Of a DNA stretch of 10,706 bases, positions 1,973 through 10,706 are shown in pieces; the stretch's first letter is position 1, and every line of letters starts with the position of its first letter. The notes under the pieces were generated by a model. It was not told the origin of the DNA. It saw nothing but the letters and a program-made list of their open reading frames with translations, and did no database searches. A program made the position numbers and the translations under genes. The stretch comes from Verrucomicrobiota bacterium (GTDB taxonomy: Bacteria; Verrucomicrobiota; Verrucomicrobiia; Limisphaerales; UBA1100): positions 1-10,706 of the forward strand of contig DQLO01000056.1 of the NCBI GenBank assembly GCA_015660155.1, read 5' to 3'.

Positions 1973-2212
1973 ATGAAAGCCAAAGTCATCATCACCCCCA
2001 AGCGCGCGGTGCTCGATCCGCAGGGCAAAACCGTGCAGACCGCCCTTGAGCATATGGGCTGCGCCGGCGTGCGAGAGGTGCGCATCGGCAAATACATCGA
2101 AATCGAAATGGACGGCGACCGCGAAACCGTCGAGGCCCAGCTCAGCGAATACGCCGACAAATTTCTCGCCAACCCGAACATCGAAGACTACCGGCTGGTT
2201 TTCGAGGACTGA
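1973..2212 (+). CDS. purS: Phosphoribosylformylglycinamidine synthase subunit PurS
   Basis: PurS is the small accessory subunit of the three-part FGAM synthase (PurS, PurQ, small PurL). It bridges the glutaminase PurQ and the synthase PurL and helps pass ammonia between them, in the cytoplasm. The 79-residue product matches the usual length of about 80. It has the family opening ([18 protein letters not shown]) with VLDPQGKTV, the middle [17 protein letters not shown] and a C-terminal NPNIEDYRL. An open extension upstream (ATG at 1937) exists, but its residues are unlike PurS and include the leader stem-loop, so 1973 is chosen. GAAGGA directly abuts the ATG, unusually close for a Shine-Dalgarno site. 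Its stop overlaps the purQ start by one base (TGATG). Confidence 0.93.
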
Positions 2213-2925
2213 TGAAGTTTGCCGTCCTTCAGTTCCCCGGCTCCAATTGCGACCAGGATTGCGTGCATGTGCTGCGCTCCGTGTTCGGCTGCCCCACGGA
2301 GTTGCTGTGGCACAAGGAATACTCGGTGGGCGATGCGGACGCGGTCTTCATCCCCGGTGGCTTCAGCTATGGCGATTATCTCCGCACCGGCTCCATCGCG
2401 CGCTTCAGCCCCGTGATGGGCGCGGTGAAGGAATTTGCCGATAACGGCGGCCACGTGTTCGGCATCTGCAACGGGTTTCAAATCCTCTGCGAAGCGGGCA
2501 TGCTCCCCGGCGCGCTCATTCGCAATCGCTCGCTGCAATTTCGTTGCGAACACGTTTACCTCCAAACCGCTACGCACGATTCGCCCTTCACCGGCCAAAT
2601 CCCCGAAGGCAAAAACCTCCGCATCCCCATCGCCCACGGCGAAGGTAATTATTTTTGTGACGACGAAACGTTGCAGTCACTCGAGGCGAACAACCAAATC
2701 CTTTTCCAATACGTCGACGCCGAAGGCGACCTCACCGACCATGCCAACCCCAACGGATCGCTCGCCAACATCGCCGGCATCTGCAATGCAAAACGCAACG
2801 TCGCCGGCATGATGCCCCACCCCGAACGCGCCGCCGAAGCAGCCCTCGGCAGCACCGACGGCCGTCTCATTTTCGAAAGCCTCATCGCCGCCCTCAAACC
2901 CCAATCCACCCTCGCTCCCGCTTGA
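2212..2925 (+). CDS. purQ: Phosphoribosylformylglycinamidine synthase subunit PurQ (glutaminase)
   Basis: PurQ is a class I glutamine amidotransferase that hydrolyses glutamine and supplies ammonia to PurL for conversion of FGAR to FGAM, the fourth step of purine synthesis. The 237-residue protein begins [16 protein letters not shown], the standard PurQ start. The nucleophile is Cys86 in [10 protein letters not shown], and the other two catalytic residues are His203 and Glu205 in [21 protein letters not shown] near residue 50 is also typical. Length fits the family. Its start shares one base with the purS stop, and its stop TGA at 2923-2925 shares one base with the purL ATG, so the three subunits are translationally coupled, as suits a complex with fixed proportions. 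GAGGA just ahead of the ATG is a usable ribosome binding site. Confidence 0.97.
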
Positions 2926-5240
2926 TGCCCACCGAACCCGCCATCACGCCGGAGTTGGTTGCCGAGCACAACCTCACGCCGGAGGAGTACGAAGGCATTT
3001 TGGAACTGCTCGGGCGCGCGCCCAACTACACTGAGCTGGGCATCTTTAGCGTGATGTGGAGCGAGCATTGTTCGTACAAAAACACGCGCGCTTTATTAAA
3101 GGGCTTTCCCACGGAATCACCGCGCGTGCTCGTGGCAGCGGGCGAGGAGAATGCCGGCATTCTCGACATCGGCGATGGCCTCGCCATTTCGTTCAAAATC
3201 GAAAGCCACAACCACCCCAGCGCCGTGGAGCCATTCCAAGGCGCGGCCACCGGCGTGGGCGGCATCATCCGCGATATTTTCACGATGGGCGCGCGGCCGG
3301 TTTGCGCCATCAACTCGCTGCGCTTTGGCGAGCTGAGCAATGCCAATGTGCGCCGACTCTTTCGCGGCGTGGTCAGCGGCATCGCGCATTACGGAAATTG
3401 CTTCGGCATTCCAACCGTTGGCGGCGAGGTTTATTTTGATAAAAGCTACGAAGGCAATCCGCTGGTGAATGCGTTCGCGCTGGGCGTGCTCCGCCACGAC
3501 CAAATTGCACGCGGCGCGGCGAAGGGTGTCGGCAATCCTGTTTTTTATGTCGGCCCCGCCACGGGCCGCGATGGGCTCGCGGGCGCGGCGTTTGCTTCGC
3601 AGGATCTCACCGAGGAATCGGCCGAGATTCAACGTGGCGCGGTGCAAGTGGGCGATCCATTCATGGAAAAACTTTGCATGGAGGCCTGTCTCGAATTGCT
3701 GGCTACCGGCGCGGTGGCGGGCATTCAGGATATGGGCGCGGCGGGGCTCACGTGTTCCACTTGCGAAACGGCGGCGCGCGGCGGCACGGGCATTGAGATT
3801 GATTTGGCGAAGGTGCCCCAGCGCAGTCCGGGTATGACGCCCTACGAAATTTTGCTCAGCGAATCGCAGGAGCGAATGCTCATCATTATCGAGCAAGGCC
3901 GCGAGGAGGAGGTGAAGCGCATCTTCGATAAATGGGATTTGCCGTGGGCGGAAATCGGCCACGTCACGGACACCGGCCAAATGGTCGTAAAAAATCACGG
4001 CGAAATTGTGGTTGATCTCCCCGCCAAAAAGCTCGCCGATGACGCGCCCATTTATCATCGCGAAGCCACGGAGCCCAAGTACCTCGCCGCCGTGCGCGCC
4101 TTCACGCTGGAAGGCATCGATGATTTGGACGACCCCACCGCCGCGCTCGGCAAACTGCTCAAGTGGCCAACCATCGCCTCCAAGAATTGGGTGTACCGCC
4201 AGTACGACCACATGGTGCGCGCCAATACGATGGTGAACCCCGGCAGCGACGCCGCCGTCATTCGCATCAAGGCCGACAGCGTTCCCGGCGGCGATGATTG
4301 CAACGGTAGCTTCCCCGAGAAGCTGCTCGCCCTTGCGGTGGATTGCAATGCCACGCACGTTTATCTCGATCCCTTCGAGGGCGCCAAAGCAGCCGTCGCG
4401 GAATGCGCGCGCAACCTAGCGTGCAGCGGCGCCACGCCGATTGGCTCCACCGATAATTTGAACTTCGGCAATCCGCACAATCCCGAACTTTTTTGGCAAC
4501 TCAAAGAATCCGTGCGCGGTTTGGCCGAAGGCTGCGCGGCGTTTGACGCGCCGGTCACCGGCGGCAACGTCAGCCTCTACAACCAAAACCCCGAAGGTGC
4601 CATCGACCCCACGCCCACGATGGCGATGGTGGGCCTCATCGAAGACGCGGCCCACGTGACGACGCAGTGGTTTAAGGACGAAGGCGCCGCGATTATTTTA
4701 TTGGGCGAACCGCTGGACGCGGAGGACGCGCTGCACGGCCTCGGCGGTTCGGCGTTTTTGCAGGTGTTGCACGAGCAAAAAACCGGCACGCCGCCCCGTT
4801 GCAATTTGGAAACCGAACGTACGCTGGGCACCACGCTGCTGGGCCTCATCCAAAGCGGCCTCGTAAAAGGCGCGCACGACTGCGCCGAGGGCGGCCTTGC
4901 GGTGGCCTTGGCGGAATGCTGTTTTTCAGAATTGGAAGGCCGCAACACGCCGCGCTTCATCGGCGCGGAAATTGATTTGAGCGAACTGGAATGCGACCGT
5001 CTCGACGCGCTTTTGTTTGGCGAAACCCTCGGGCGCATTGTCATCACCACCTCGGAGCTGGACTCCGTAAAAGCCATCGAGCGCGCCAAACTGATGGGCG
5101 TGCCCGCGCGCCGTATTGGCACGGTGGGCGCGGTGAAGGGCGCGGCATTGAAAATTAAGTCGACGACTGGCGAGTGGTCATGGGAGGTTGCCGGCTTGCA
5201 CGATCTTTGGTGGAACTCAATCGACAACGCAATGGCCTAG
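2925..5240 (+). CDS. purL: Phosphoribosylformylglycinamidine synthase subunit PurL (small form)
   Basis: PurL uses ATP and ammonia from PurQ to convert FGAR to FGAM. At 771 residues this is the small Bacillus-type PurL, not the roughly 1300-residue fused form of Escherichia coli, in line with separate purS and purQ ahead of it. Family signatures seen in order: [13 protein letters not shown] near residue 45, [21 protein letters not shown] from residue 93 (the conserved HNHP region), [40 protein letters not shown] from residue 546, and [15 protein letters not shown]. The frame is intact with no truncation. ATG 2925 is preferred over the in-frame TTG at 2922 because it gives the tight TGATG coupling to purQ and a normal start. 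The stop TAG is followed 4 nt later by the purF ATG. Confidence 0.97.
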
Positions 5241-5244
5241 CAGA

Positions 5245-6702
5245 ATGAGCGACGAACAGGATTACCCCAAACATTACTGCGGCGTGTTCGGCGTGCACGG
5301 CCATCCCAACGCCGCCGAGCTGACGTATTACGGCTTGTACGCGCTGCAACATCGCGGGCAGGAAAGCGCCGGTATCGTTTCCAACGACGGCACGAAGTTT
5401 CGCGAGCACAAAGGGATGGGCCTCGTGCCGCAGGTTTTCAAAGGCAATGTGCTGCACGATTTGGTGGGGCACACCGCCATTGGCCACGCGCGCTATTCCA
5501 CCACCGGTAGTTCCAACATCGGCAACGCCCAGCCGCTTACGGTGGATTGTTCGCGCGGCCAAATTTCCATCGCCCACAACGGCAACCTCACCAACGCCGC
5601 CGTGTTGCGCGAGGAACTCGAAGAGCGCGGCTCCATTTTCCAAACCACGGTCGACAGCGAAATCGTTTTGCATTGGCTCGCCCAACCCACCAGCAATGGC
5701 GAGAACACGCTCGTCAGCACCATTCGCAAACTCGAAGGCGCGTACTCGCTCATCATTCTTACTGAAAACGAAATGATCGGCGTGCGCGATCCGCACGGCT
5801 TCCGCCCGCTGTGCATCGGCCAGCTCGCGAGTGGCGCGTACGTGCTCAGCAGCGAAACGTGCGCGTTGGATTTGATTGAGGCCAAGTTTGTGCGCGACGT
5901 GGAGCCGGGCGAAATTGTCATTATTAACGACGATGGATTGCGCAGCATCGAGGCTTTTCCCGAACAGGAGAAACGGTCGTTTTGCATTTTTGAGTACGTC
6001 TACTTTTCACGGCCGGACAGCAACCTCAACGGCCGCAATGTTTACAAAGTGCGCGTGGATATGGGGCGCGAGTTGGCGCGCGAAAACCCCATCGAAGCCG
6101 ACATCGTGGTGCCCATTCCCGACAGCGGCAACTGCGCTGCGCTGGGTTACGCGCTGGAAAGCGGGATCCCCTTCGAGATGGCTTTCGTTCGCAATCACTA
6201 CGTGGGCCGTAGCTTTTTGCAGCCGAGCCAGCTCATTCGCGATTTCAACGTGCGCGTGAAGCTCAACCTCATCACCGATCTCGTGAAGGACAAGCGCGTC
6301 ATCATCGTGGATGATTCCATCGTGCGCGGCACCACATGTCAAAAGCGCGTGAATGGACTCAAGGAAGCCGGGGCCAAAGAAGTGCACGTGCTGGTAAGCT
6401 GTCCGCCGCACAAAAATCCGTGCGTGTATGGAATTGATTTTCCTGATCGCAGCAAGCTGATGGCGGCCAATAACACCATTGAAGAAATTTGCACTTATCT
6501 GAATGCCGACTCGCTGAATTATCTTTCGCAAGACGGAATGGTGCGCGCCACGGGCCATCCAAAGGAATCATTTTGCATGGCGTGTTACGATGGAAATTAT
6601 CCGGTGGAATACGATCCCGCCGTGGACAAGCACATCATGGAACGCCAACGCGACCGCGCCAAGAGCCTTGTGGCGGATGACTCCCAGCCCAAGCTTTTGT
6701 AA
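5245..6702 (+). CDS. purF: Amidophosphoribosyltransferase PurF, Fe-S type
   Basis: PurF makes phosphoribosylamine from PRPP and glutamine, the first committed step of purine synthesis. The 485-residue product has an N-terminal Ntn glutaminase domain and a C-terminal phosphoribosyltransferase domain. Eleven residues precede Cys12 (HYC-GVFG), which matches a Bacillus-type propeptide cleaved to expose the catalytic cysteine. QHRGQESAGI and SIAHNGNLTN are typical glutaminase segments. The PRPP loop is VIIVDDSIVRGTT at about 352-364. Cys247, Cys393, Cys444 and Cys447 (FCIFEY, NPCVYG, FCMAC) fall where the 4Fe-4S ligands of B. subtilis PurF lie, so an oxygen-sensitive cluster is predicted. An open frame extends back to ATG 5188 inside purL, but ATG 5245 gives the normal propeptide. 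No clear ribosome binding site; translation is probably coupled to purL. End-product feedback by nucleotides is known for the family. Confidence 0.97.
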   Translation: MSDEQDYPKHYCGVFGVHGHPNAAELTYYGLYALQHRGQESAGIVSNDGTKFREHKGMGLVPQVFKGNVLHDLVGHTAIGHARYSTTGSSNIGNAQPLTVDCSRGQISIAHNGNLTNAAVLREELEERGSIFQTTVDSEIVLHWLAQPTSNGENTLVSTIRKLEGAYSLIILTENEMIGVRDPHGFRPLCIGQLASGAYVLSSETCALDLIEAKFVRDVEPGEIVIINDDGLRSIEAFPEQEKRSFCIFEYVYFSRPDSNLNGRNVYKVRVDMGRELARENPIEADIVVPIPDSGNCAALGYALESGIPFEMAFVRNHYVGRSFLQPSQLIRDFNVRVKLNLITDLVKDKRVIIVDDSIVRGTTCQKRVNGLKEAGAKEVHVLVSCPPHKNPCVYGIDFPDRSKLMAANNTIEEICTYLNADSLNYLSQDGMVRATGHPKESFCMACYDGNYPVEYDPAVDKHIMERQRDRAKSLVADDSQPKLL

Positions 6703-7757
6703 TGGCCAAGACCGCTTACGCAAAAGCCGGTGTCGATCTTGCCTTGGGCAATCAAGTGAAGGCCGGTTTGTCGCGGTTGCTCAAGTCCGCATCGCGCCCC
6801 GAAGTGCTCGGCAAGGTCGGTGGCTTCGGCGGCCTCTTTGCGCTCAAGACCGGCAAGTATAAAAACCCCGTGCTCGTCTCCAGCGTCGACGGCGTGGGCA
6901 CCAAGCTCAAGGTCGCCTTCGCGATGAAGCGCCACCACACCATCGGGCAGGATCTCGTCAACCATTGCGTGGACGACATCGCGGTGCTCGGCGCGGAGCC
7001 GTTATTTTTTCTCGATTACCTCGGCACCGGCGTTTTGAAGCCAAACGTGTTCGAGCAAATCATCGCCGGCTTCGCGCTCGGCTGCGCGGAAAACAACTGC
7101 GCCCTCATCGGCGGCGAGACGGCGCAAATGTCCACCTTTTACAAAAAAGGCGAGTACGACGTGAGCGGCACCATCGTCGGTGTGGTCGAGAAAAGTGCGA
7201 TGCTTGACGGACGCGGCATCAAGCCCGGCGATGCCATCATCGGCATCGCCAGCAGCGGACTGCACACCAACGGCTACTCGCTCGCGCGCAAAGTATTTTT
7301 CGAAACCATGAAACTCAAGCCGCGCAGCTGCGTGCCCGAGCTCGGCTGCAGCGTCGGCGATGAGCTGCTGAAAATCCACGTGAGCTACGGCTCGCTCGTG
7401 CAGGCGTTGCTGAAGAGCTTCAACAAACCCCGCCGCGCCCGCGCCATCAAAGGTTTGGCCCACATCACCGGCGGCGGCTTCATCGATAACATCCCGCGCG
7501 TGCTGCCAATAAATTGCGGCGTCACCATTCGCCGCGGCACGTGGCCGGTGCTGCCGGTTTTCGAGCTCATCCAAAAACACGGCAAAGTTTCCACCGCCGA
7601 GATGCATCAAGTCTTCAACATGGGCATCGGCATGACCGCCATCGTCAGCGGGCCAAAGGCCGACAGCATCCTCCGCAGCATCCGTCGCCGAGGCCACAAA
7701 GCGTGGATTATTGGTGAGGTGACAAAAGGGCGCGGTAAAGTTAAGCTGGCGCAATGA
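6702..7757 (+). CDS. purM: Phosphoribosylformylglycinamidine cyclo-ligase (AIR synthase) PurM
   Basis: PurM closes the imidazole ring, converting FGAM to AIR with ATP, so it uses the product of the upstream PurSQL complex. The 351-residue length is normal. Motifs seen: SSVDGVGTKLKVA at 60-72, the block GQDLVNHCVDDI from residue 82 and LGAEPLFFLDYLGTG, IGGETAQM at 137-143, SSGLHTNGYSL at 184-194, HITGGGFIDNIPRVLP at 254-269 and FNMGIGM at 305-311. Two local departures from the E. coli enzyme are visible: serine after TAQM where proline is usual, and LLKIHVSYGS at 222-231 where APTRIY or PTKIY is common. The core is otherwise complete. The start shares one base with the purF stop (TAATG), and the last four bases overlap purD (ATGA), so it sits in the middle of a coupled chain. 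Confidence 0.96.
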   Translation: MAKTAYAKAGVDLALGNQVKAGLSRLLKSASRPEVLGKVGGFGGLFALKTGKYKNPVLVSSVDGVGTKLKVAFAMKRHHTIGQDLVNHCVDDIAVLGAEPLFFLDYLGTGVLKPNVFEQIIAGFALGCAENNCALIGGETAQMSTFYKKGEYDVSGTIVGVVEKSAMLDGRGIKPGDAIIGIASSGLHTNGYSLARKVFFETMKLKPRSCVPELGCSVGDELLKIHVSYGSLVQALLKSFNKPRRARAIKGLAHITGGGFIDNIPRVLPINCGVTIRRGTWPVLPVFELIQKHGKVSTAEMHQVFNMGIGMTAIVSGPKADSILRSIRRRGHKAWIIGEVTKGRGKVKLAQ

Positions 7758-9046
7758 ACATTCTCCTCATCGGCGGTGGCGGGCGCGAGCACGCTTTGGC
7801 TTGGAAGCTGGCGCAGAGCCCGCGTGTGGAGCGGCTTTGGGTGGCGCCGGGGAATGGTGGCATTGCGGGGGAGGTCACTGCGGGCGGCGTGCCGGTGGAG
7901 TGTGTGCCGGTGGGTGCGGAGGATTTGGAGGCGCTTTTGGATTTCGCCGTGGCGCATCAACCGGAGCTCACGGTGGTGGGGCCGGATAATCCGCTGGCGG
8001 CGGGCATTGTGGATTTGTTTGAGGAAAATAATTTGCGCATTTGGGGGCCGAACGCGGCGGCGGCGCAGTTTGAATCGTCCAAAGTTTTCGCGCAGGATTT
8101 TATGGCGCGGCACAGTATCCCGACGGCGCGGGCGGGGACGTTTAATTTTCCGACAGCGGCGAAGGCTTTTGCGGGCGAGCTGGACGGCCGATGTGTGGTG
8201 AAAGCGGATGGTCTCGCGCTGGGCAAAGGGGTTTTGATTTGCGAAACGCTGGAGGAAGCGGAGGCGGCGATTGACTCGGTGATGGTCGATCAACAATTTG
8301 GTGAGGCGGGCGATCAAGTGGTGATTCAGGAATTTTTGGAAGGCACCGAAATTTCGCTGCACGTGATGTGCGATGGCCGCACCACCATTTTATTTCCCAC
8401 TTCGCAGGATCACAAACGCGCGCTGGACGGCGACAAGGGCCTCAACACCGGCGGCATGGGCACCTTTTCGCCCGCGCCGTTTTTGAGCGATGAGGATTTG
8501 GCGCAAGCCGCGAGGGCCATCATCGACCCATGGCTGCTGGGGTGTCAGGTGGAGGAAATCGATTTTCGCGGCATGCTTTACCCCGGCCTGATGTTGACCG
8601 ACGAGGGCCCAAAGGTGCTGGAATTCAACGCGCGCTGGGGCGATCCGGAAACGCAGGTTTACCTCATGCGATTGGAAACCGACCTCGTGGATTTGTTTGA
8701 GGCGAGCATCGACCGTCGGCTGGCGGAGATGGACGTGCATTGGAGCGATCAAGCCGCCGTGTGCGTGGTGATGGCTTCGGGCGGGTATCCCGAAAGCTAC
8801 GCCAAAGGCAAACCCATCACCGGCATCGCCGATGCCGACGCGATGGAAGGCGTGAAAGTTTTCCACGCCGGCACCAAATATGAAGGTAAAAACCTCGTCA
8901 CCAGCGGCGGCCGCGTGCTGGGAGTCACGGCGCTGGGCGACACATTGGCCGCCGCGCGCGATCTGGCTTACGCGGCGGTGGATAAAATAAAGTTTGAAGG
9001 CGCGCACGTTCGCGGGGATATTGCCGCCAAGGCGTTGACCGATTGA
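7754..9046 (+). CDS. purD: Phosphoribosylamine-glycine ligase (GAR synthetase) PurD
   Basis: PurD joins glycine to phosphoribosylamine with ATP, giving GAR, and so uses the unstable product of PurF directly. The 430-residue product has the expected pre-ATP-grasp start [17 protein letters not shown], then [12 protein letters not shown] at 76-87, the ATP-grasp lysine region [13 protein letters not shown] at 148-160, [10 protein letters not shown] at 192-201, PTSQDHKR at 215-222, [10 protein letters not shown] at 231-240 and the metal/ATP site [14 protein letters not shown] at 288-301. No missing key residue was noticed. The start overlaps the purM stop by 4 nt. The first 600 nt or so are strongly G-rich on this strand (line 7861-7920 has 32 G to 12 C), unlike purM before it and the rest of purD after about 8380. 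Downstream, 23 nt separate it from the fused phosphatase-RpiB-SHMT gene, whose SHMT domain can supply its glycine. Confidence 0.97.
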
Positions 9047-9069: not shown

Positions 9070-10706
9070 ATGAAAAAAATTCTCTTTGTCTGCACGGGCA
9101 ACATTTGTCGCAGCCCGATGGCCGAAGGCTTTTTCCGCGAACTCATGAAAGAGCAGGGCGGCTACGAAGCACTGTCGGCCGGCCTCGGCGCGATCGATGG
9201 CGCGTCGCCCAGCGTGCATTCGGTCACGGCGATGCAGGAATTGGGCATCGATATCACCGACCAGCGCAGCGCGCAAATCACTCCGGAAATGGTCGCCGAA
9301 TCCGATTATATTTTCGGCCTCGCCAGCGGGCACGTGGACAACATCATTCGCTACTTCCCCCAAGCCCGCGAGCGGGTGTTTTTGCTGCGCGAGTTTGTGG
9401 AGGCACTGCCCGCCGACCGCAAGGACATCGCCGATCCGATTGGCGGCGACCTCACAATTTATCAAGTCTGCCGCAATCAAATCAAGGAGGGCATCGAGGC
9501 ACTCATTCCGTTTGTGAACCAAACTTCAATGACATCATCAGTAAAAAAAAATAACACCCTCGCCATCGGCGCGGATCATGGCGGCTATGCGCTCAAAGAA
9601 ACTCTGCGCGCGCATCTCGAGGCGCAAGACATCACCGTTCAGGATTACGGCCCCGCCAGCGATGACTCCTGCGATTATCCGGACTTCGCCCAAGCGGTGG
9701 CCCGCAGCGTGGCCAGCGGGCAACACGCGCGCGGCGTGCTCATTTGCAAATCCGGCGTGGGCATGAGCATGGCCGCCAACAAAGTGGTCGGCGTACGCGC
9801 GGCGCTCATTGACGAGCCAGGAACCGCCGTGCTCGCGCGCCAGCACAACAATGCAAACGTGCTTTGCTTGTCCGCCAACAAAACCGGCGCGGAAGCGGCC
9901 AAGGATATTTTGGAATCATTCCTCGGCACGGAGTTCGAGGGCGGCCGCCATGTGCGGCGCGTTGAAAAACTGGAGCCCGATCATCGCGTGGAAGTGGTGG
10001 ACCCCGATGTGGACGAGGTGCTGCGGCACGAAAAACAGCGCCAACAGGAAAACATCGAGCTGATCGCCAGCGAAAATTTCACCAGCCCCGCCGTGATGGA
10101 AGCGCAGGGCTCCACGCTCACTAATAAATATGCCGAAGGCTATCCCGGCAAACGCTGGTACGGCGGCTGCGAACACGTGGACGTGGTGGAAGAACTGGCC
10201 ATCGAGCGCGCCAAAAAAGTTTTTGGCGCGGAATATGTGAACGTCCAGCCGCATTCGGGCAGTGGCGCGAATATGGCCGTGTACTTCGCAGTGCTCAAGC
10301 CGGGCGATAAAATGCTCACGATGGATCTCAGCCATGGCGGCCATCTCACGCACGGCAATGCGGCCAACTTCTCCGGCAAGTTTTTCGAGATCGTCCATTA
10401 CGGCGTGCGCAAGGAGGACGAGCGGATTGATTACGATCAACTCGCCGAAATGGCGATGGAGCACAAACCGAAAATGATCACCGTGGGCGCGAGCGCCTAC
10501 CCGCGCCTCATCGATTTCCAGCGGATGGGCGAGATCGCTAAGGCGAGCGGCGCGATGTTGCTGGCGGACATCGCGCACATCGCTGGGCTCGTGGCCGCCG
10601 GTTGCCATCCGAGCCCCGTGCCGCACGCGGATTTTGTCACCACCACCACTCACAAAACTTTGCGCGGCCCGCGCGGCGGGCTCATTATGGCGCGCGAGGA
10701 ATACGC
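9070..10706 (+). CDS. Triple fusion: LMW protein phosphatase - ribose-5-phosphate isomerase B - serine hydroxymethyltransferase (3' end outside window)
   Basis: One open frame of 545 codons plus two bases reads through three domains with no stop. Residues 1-150 are a low-molecular-weight phosphatase: P-loop C8-TGNIC-R14-S15 and general acid Asp122 in DIADPIGGD. Residues about 163-300 are RpiB, which interconverts ribulose 5-phosphate and ribose 5-phosphate: ADHGGY with Asp169 and His170, base Cys226 in LICKSGVG, His259 in RQHNNAN, and EGGRHVRRV near 290. Residues about 311 onward are SHMT (serine + THF to glycine + methylene-THF): [35 protein letters not shown], Asp500 and His503, and the PLP lysine Lys529 in [14 protein letters not shown]. 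About 170 SHMT residues lie beyond the window. ATG 9070 is chosen because the phosphatase fold begins there. The internal ATG at 9529 has no Shine-Dalgarno sequence near it. Last known gene of the purine operon. Confidence 0.88.
9543..9554 (+). other. A9 slippery tract with immediate alternative stop at a domain junction
   Basis: Nine consecutive A occupy 9543-9551, between the phosphatase and RpiB domains. In the fusion frame they read GTA AAA AAA AAT, so A_AAA_AAA (9543-9549) is an in-frame heptamer of the kind used for minus-one ribosomal frameshifting. A one-base backward slip, or one extra A added by RNA polymerase slippage, gives AAA then TAA at 9552-9554. The shortened product would be about 161 residues, a complete phosphatase. 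A weak 6-bp stem (CGCCAT at 9561-9566, ATGGCG at 9578-9583) follows 11 nt after the heptamer. Function is inferred; the tract is also the likeliest place for a sequencing indel. Confidence 0.45.

Follow-up and report, generated by a model that had tools for sequence, protein, structure and literature searches.

A low-molecular-weight phosphatase, RpiB and serine hydroxymethyltransferase fused in a single reading frame in an order of Verrucomicrobiota

The closest described counterpart of the gene examined here is Minf_1669 of Methylacidiphilum infernorum V4, in which serine hydroxymethyltransferase (SHMT), low-molecular-weight (LMW) phosphatase and RpiB domains were listed in one protein (Hou et al. 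2008, PMC2474590). The lines of that paper devoted to Minf_1669 call the protein unusual and suggest that it links serine with the pentose phosphate pathway. A literature search for Minf_1669 returned this paper as its sole result, and experimental work on a fusion of LMW phosphatase (LMWP), RpiB and SHMT was not found in the literature searched; the sections of PMC8170126 that bear on the subject mention glyA and a different fusion, XoxG/J, but not one of LMWP, RpiB and SHMT. The separate phosphatase YwlE offers a second point of comparison. According to the relevant section of PMC8001253, the residue at position PX5 of the P-loop bears on substrate preference, with threonine favoring phosphoarginine and isoleucine favoring phosphotyrosine. 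The literature found on protein-arginine phosphorylation, in the portions that concern us, deals mainly with Bacillus, Staphylococcus and a mycobacterium, and the sections of PMC8370763 that treat YwlE and McsB make no mention of Verrucomicrobia.

The locus lies in a stretch of 10,706 nucleotides (C178:1-10706, hereafter the window) from a metagenome-assembled genome of Verrucomicrobiota, G000, which comprises 2.15 Mb in 423 contigs and is 73.6 per cent complete. Translation of 9070-10706 on the forward strand yields 545 residues with no stops and stays open to the contig end, which bears out the single open frame read in an earlier note on this DNA. Three Pfam domains lie along the frame far above their cut-offs (Table 1): LMWPc at residues 4-145 (109.6 bits against a cut-off of 23.2), LacAB_rpiB at residues 165-301 (184.1 bits) and SHMT at residues 308-542 (374.7 bits against 27), the last covering profile positions 2-245 of 399 because the contig ends there. 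NCBIfam assigns the middle part to rpiB (TIGR01120, 163.5 against a cut-off of 138.65) and the third to serine hydroxymethyltransferase (NF000586, 398.3 against 335). The hallmarks of each enzyme are present: the C(X)5R P-loop and general-acid aspartate of a low-molecular-weight phosphatase (C8, R14 and D122), C226 and H259 alongside the above-threshold equivalog match of a ribose-5-phosphate isomerase B, and the PLP lysine K529 alongside the above-threshold profile of an SHMT, although the window's copy of the latter is truncated. The catalytic residues named in the earlier note (C8, R14, D122, D169, H170, C226, H259 and K529) are kept just as it described, in an intact phosphatase, an intact RpiB and an SHMT that extends past its PLP lysine. 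Across 80 fetched relatives they are invariant, with one gap at K529 in L015, whose contig ends before that position. Only the spacing differs from what had been proposed, since the linkers measure 19 and 6 residues by the Pfam borders rather than roughly 10-15.

The remainder of the gene can be traced within the same assembly. Contig C234 (positions 2-319) encodes an SHMT C-terminus that matches residues 609-714 of P0003 at 100 per cent, P0003 being a relative of 714 amino acids that is 98 per cent identical across the query. The end of the window and C234 are collinear with a single contig of G304, a genome of the same genus in which the gene is whole, and the middle missing between C178 and C234 amounts to about 63 residues. 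From P0003 and G304 the full-length product would be about 714 residues.

Table 1. Features of the purine gene cluster and the adjoining fused gene, in window coordinates.
Feature	Position	Strand	Basis or remark
purS	1973..2212	+	Pfam PF02700
purQ	2212..2925	+	Pfam GATase_5; gene name inferred
purL	2922..5240	+	Pfam AIRS, AIRS_C, FGAR-AT_linker
purF	5245..6702	+	Pfam GATase_6/7 and Pribosyltran; gene name inferred
purM	6702..7757	+	Pfam AIRS and AIRS_C; gene name inferred
purD	7754..9046	+	Pfam GARS_N/A/C; stop 23 bases before the fusion ATG
LMW phosphatase, RpiB and SHMT, single ORF	9070..10706	+	translation and Pfam; ~714 residues expected
LMWPc domain, residues 4-145	9079..9504	+	Pfam; YwlE is the nearest solved relative
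P-loop CTGNICRS	9091..9114	+	translation; PX5 is Ile (Thr11 in YwlE)
Linker 1, 19 residues	9505..9561	+	Pfam borders
In-frame internal ATG, linker 1	9529..9531	+	sequence
Nine-A run, linker 1	9543..9551	+	-1 shift leads to TAA at 9552-9554, giving phosphatase alone
RpiB (LacAB_rpiB) domain, residues 165-301	9562..9972	+	Pfam; Cys226 and His259 present
Linker 2, 6 residues	9973..9990	+	Pfam borders
SHMT domain from residue 308, K529 codon 10654-10656	9991..10706	+	Pfam; cut by contig end

The architecture had been suspected of being novel. It is in fact already known and widespread in the order: the same composition was published in 2008 for Minf_1669, and all three Pfam domains occur in 119 of the 120 best relatives among 7997 scored in a protein database, the window's own protein included. 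The one exception, P0088 (500 amino acids), comes from a contig of the same length as that of locus L007, where the frame is whole to the contig end, and looks like a late start call. Several further database relatives are 698 amino acids long and cover only 97 per cent of the query; these, too, look like late start calls, because a start at Met17 would remove the P-loop (9070-9123 in the window).

The same picture emerges at the level of genomes. Among the best 80 of 225 loci encoding a relative, one open frame runs from the phosphatase through RpiB and into SHMT in every case, and a search for stops or frameshifts between the domains found none in these 80. The frame ends at 712-726 residues in 77 of them, in keeping with the earlier expectation of about 720; L007 and L015 reach the contig end, and L082 has a stop at 609. 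Within the order, 116 genomes were assembled into a set including G000, and 99 of the 115 others carry an uninterrupted frame over approximately residues 1-714, while two gave no match to the fusion. Matches were incomplete in 11 of the 115, ten of which come to no more than about 120 bases from a contig end (including G248, with a run of N and a TAA inside SHMT, and G261, with a TAG inside SHMT), the eleventh being G354. A break between domains was seen in just one of the 115, G268, a real variant whose phosphatase gene stands apart in a different frame. G322 (L120:1257-3056) and G297 (L121) are real variants as well, in which phosphatase and SHMT are fused in one frame without RpiB and a separate RpiB is present elsewhere in the genome.

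It could be argued that three genes were joined here by an assembly or frameshift artefact, given that the source assembly is fragmented into 423 contigs and that a contig end falls inside SHMT. The identical frame recurs, however, in the independent assemblies of relatives, and on these grounds an artefact was rejected as having a negligible chance of being correct. The three-domain fusion is genuine. We judge it likely that the gene encodes a trifunctional enzyme of the Minf_1669 kind, a single chain of about 714 residues with the supply and phosphatase roles that are proposed below.

Linker 1 contains two elements through which the single chain might be accompanied by a separate phosphatase or a separate RpiB-SHMT protein, namely the in-frame ATG at 9529, which could serve as an internal start, and the A9 run (9543-9551), on which a -1 slip would meet a stop at once. 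The run was not seen in 17 relatives inspected at linker 1, however, and in L003, at 96 per cent identity, a G is followed by eight A; programmed slippage on A9 was rejected for this reason. Only 26 of the 80 relatives have an ATG in the linker, so that conservation of a separate rpiB start is not the rule, and the idea advanced in the earlier note that ATG 9529 is the relic start of a separate rpiB was discarded. That note had also pointed to the lack of a ribosome binding site at 9529. Inspection by eye agrees that no Shine-Dalgarno sequence is recognisable there, but none is recognisable at 9070 either, so the observation is uninformative. Additional products of either kind therefore seem to us quite improbable, and a single chain is assumed in what follows.

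Loci beyond the closest relatives indicate how such a chain may have arisen. A further 86 loci were classified by DNA, 81 of which come from outside the order and were drawn from about 110 genomes with RpiB-SHMT matches, and hence selected for having the two joined. All 81 fuse RpiB to SHMT; the phosphatase belongs to the fusion in 11 and is a separate upstream neighbor, often abutting, in 37, and it was not found at the other 33 within the upstream sequence covered (at most about 1.5 kb, and about 0.6 kb in L162). In 27 genomes the match at SHMT was to SHMT alone. The 20 of these that were fetched are those with a phosphatase nearby on the same contig, the best phosphatase match of the other seven being on a different contig. 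Three tandem, separate genes for LMWP, RpiB and SHMT were present in two of the 20, LMWP and SHMT were separate neighbors in 13, and LMWP was fused to SHMT in five (L198-L202). Stages between tandem genes and the complete fusion are present in the phylum, and the value of the locus lies in offering a plain example of genes fused step by step, with the intermediates within one phylum.

A tree was built by a quick method from 112 RpiB-SHMT sequences, 33 taken from the 80 relatives and 79 from the 86 loci; it requires at least six changes between phosphatase-fused and not fused, with 41 of 109 inner branches open and the root not inferred, and this count is compatible with changes in the direction of both gain and loss. 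Within the phylum the string phosphatase-(rpiB)-glyA seems ancient, and its genes seem to have been joined or separated on several occasions. In five fused loci (L084, L088, L092, L093 and L095) the RpiB domain is without C226 and H259; the genomes concerned hold two or three RpiB matches, one of which is a separate protein with an open frame of 150-168 residues. Such a history could be accommodated by neutral drift, in which a conserved string of phosphatase, rpiB and glyA repeatedly lost its stops, with shared expression as the sole link and no joint function. The gradation from tandem genes to full fusion, the repeated changes on the tree and the absence of RpiB from the fusion in some lineages all agree with this account, yet the full fusion persists in 99 of the 115 other genomes of the order and the catalytic residues are invariant throughout the 80 relatives examined. 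Weighing these, we regard drift without joint function as possible but on the improbable side, and continue with the reading that the fused enzyme has a joint role.

One such role is suggested by the neighborhood, for the fusion stands downstream of purS-Q-L-F-M-D in the window. Upstream of these genes, at 1094-1846, lies the gene of a protein whose N-terminus bears a methylation motif like that of type IV pilins. PRPP derives from the RpiB product, and de novo purine synthesis also draws on glycine and one-carbon units. The RpiB part would thus provide ribose-5-phosphate and the SHMT part glycine and methylene-tetrahydrofolate. As both products would feed de novo purine synthesis and the pur genes lie directly upstream here, we propose that the fusion may hold the two supplies at a fixed ratio. 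The LMWP part is not itself a purine enzyme. RpiB and SHMT are oligomeric in other organisms, for which reason the chain presumably works as a homo-oligomer carrying tethered phosphatases.

These considerations suggest that the fusion supplies purine precursors, but this role is weakened as a general account. Across the 73 loci with at least 1.5 kb of upstream sequence, purD is found upstream on the same strand in 30 and adjoins the fusion in only 15, so the pur neighborhood is not general, and a strict purine-operon explanation is weakened to the same extent. Nor would a joint supply of ribose-5-phosphate and one-carbon units be the bond everywhere, since there are LMWP-SHMT fusions that lack RpiB and five RpiB domains that lack catalytic residues. 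RpiA was found in none of 58 order genomes (control matches in 8 of 14 genomes) and a single RpiB match in 38 of the 58, so that in many cases no isomerase other than the fused RpiB is known. A second, separate SHMT (E ≤ 1e-40) was found in G280 only among the order genomes, and the fused copy is thus usually the sole SHMT. For annotation of the pentose phosphate pathway in this phylum it matters that, in those 38 genomes, no ribose-5-phosphate isomerase was found beyond the single RpiB match.

The role of the phosphatase part has to be sought elsewhere. Among solved structures it lies closest to YwlE (4pic, E 5.5e-28), which scores 100.9 bits, and to 4egs; the best match outside these two reaches 64. 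None of the NCBIfam models gives the domain the name YwlE, and its top scores there come from arsenate reductase models, at 67 bits where the cut-off is 215. G000, itself an incomplete genome, has a single further LMWPc protein, which reaches 134.7 against an arsenate reductase model, under the cut-off of 174.3 and twice the score of the fused domain. The most probable identity of the LMWP part is a cytoplasmic protein phosphatase belonging to the YwlE clade.

The P-loop residue complicates this assignment. PX5 in the window is isoleucine, the tyrosine type, and not the threonine of the YwlE type; among the 80 fused relatives it is I in 47, V in 30 and T in 3, as against T in 26, I in 7, S in 3 and V in 2 among 38 adjacent unfused phosphatases, counts that leave out the 20 loci fetched from SHMT-alone genomes. 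Despite the strength of these raw counts, we do not claim that fusion drove a change from Thr to Ile or Val at PX5, as a tree-based pair test gave a median p of 0.5 from 4 pairs. The domain could then be an ordinary phosphotyrosine phosphatase with no relation to McsB, in line with isoleucine or valine at PX5 in 77 of 80 fused relatives and with the assignment of isoleucine to phosphotyrosine and threonine to phosphoarginine in the section of PMC8001253 on this position. Against it stand the nearest solved proteins, which are YwlE, and the fact that the sole other LMWPc protein of the incomplete G000 has arsenate reductase models as its best matches.

Evidence from the presumed partner kinase also bears on the question. 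The McsB family (PF00217) was matched in 58 of 58 order genomes. Bacillus subtilis possesses McsB, and the PF00217 control search matched none of 14 control genomes, B. subtilis included. NCBIfam gave the name protein arginine kinase to both PF00217 matches that were scanned with it, in one case above the cut-off: in G290 (L183:1005-2631) McsB scores 421.8, over the NF002194 cut-off of 385, and is preceded by a McsA-like gene (146 bits, cut-off 210), while in G000 (L114:1-3000) a 5'-truncated McsB scores 344.7, under the same cut-off of 385, and is followed by a Clp ATPase gene. The best models for the latter are ClpB and ClpA, below cut-off, and we read it as ClpC.

Phosphatase and kinase were then tabulated across 145 genomes of the phylum, with 'YwlE-like' defined as a best E ≤ 1e-18 for an unfused phosphatase query and 'McsB strong' as E ≤ 1e-40, cut-offs that were set after the lists had been seen. 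Both were present in 112 genomes and neither in 25; six had strong McsB without the phosphatase and two the reverse (Fisher 3e-20, uncorrected for relatedness). G135, which is off the tree, was scored as lacking the phosphatase on the basis of a partial match with a best E of 8.4e-14. In a tree-aware pair test on 74 rows, a mean of 4.5 of 8 independent pairs agreed, 0 opposed and 3.5 showed no difference, with a median p of 0.125. Ten McsB relatives were fetched, two strong and eight weak (L187-L194), the weak ones all from phosphatase-lacking genomes. The cysteine of CPTNLGTG is lost in seven of these eight (L192 retains it) and other motifs are altered; these are catalytic motifs, and the weak relatives look like pseudokinases.

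Together, the co-occurrence table and the motif loss in McsB of phosphatase-lacking genomes favor a partnership between the phosphatase and an arginine kinase, and they count against the phosphotyrosine alternative, under which the linkage with McsB would reflect shared ancestry. Shared ancestry agrees with the tree-aware pair test, which is not significant, and taking this together with the residue at PX5 we give an ordinary phosphotyrosine phosphatase a little short of an even chance. Because YwlE-like phosphatases track intact McsB in the phylum, phosphoarginine is nonetheless a candidate substrate of the LMWP part, and the phosphatase may be one component of a system for protein-arginine phosphorylation. 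The fullest version of this proposal is that the N-terminal domain would be the arginine phosphatase of a Verrucomicrobiota McsA-McsB-ClpC system, built into an enzyme of ribose-5-phosphate, glycine and one-carbon supply, with the kinase turning into a pseudokinase where the phosphatase was lost; we put it forward tentatively, as a reading from sequence comparisons that may well prove wrong. Were it true, arginine-phosphate marking would be coupled to enzymes that supply nucleotide synthesis. Activity on phosphoarginine would also extend protein-arginine phosphorylation to a large environmental phylum and physically connect protein quality control with the supply of purine precursors.

Compared with Minf_1669, the fusion described here has the same three domains and comes from the same phylum; its order is LMWP, RpiB and SHMT, and the 2008 text, in its lines on this protein, only lists the domains. 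Family f4 might, at a guess, represent Methylacidiphilaceae and the kin of Minf_1669. In four fused loci of this family (L084, L092, L093 and L095) RpiB is without C226 and H259 and each genome has a further, separate RpiB, whereas the RpiB of the window is intact. Like YwlE and PtpB, the phosphatase part belongs by sequence to the LMW-PTP family, with YwlE as its nearest solved structure, and the window's genome carries McsB next to a Clp ATPase gene. Unlike YwlE, a separate small protein with chains of 150-184 residues and threonine at PX5, the domain in the window is fused and has isoleucine there. The phosphatase part also matches PDB 4egs, an LMWP chain of 180 residues, from what we take to be Thermoanaerobacter, that was deposited as 'Ribose 5-phosphate isomerase RpiB'; a literature search found no paper on it. 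Its deposited name suggests a joined LMWP-RpiB gene in another organism, and no SHMT is seen in the chain. The two-domain RpiB-SHMT proteins of the phylum share with the window the joining of RpiB and SHMT in one frame and in the same order, and differ from it in the phosphatase, which at those loci is mostly a neighbor or was not found and is fused in 11 of 81.
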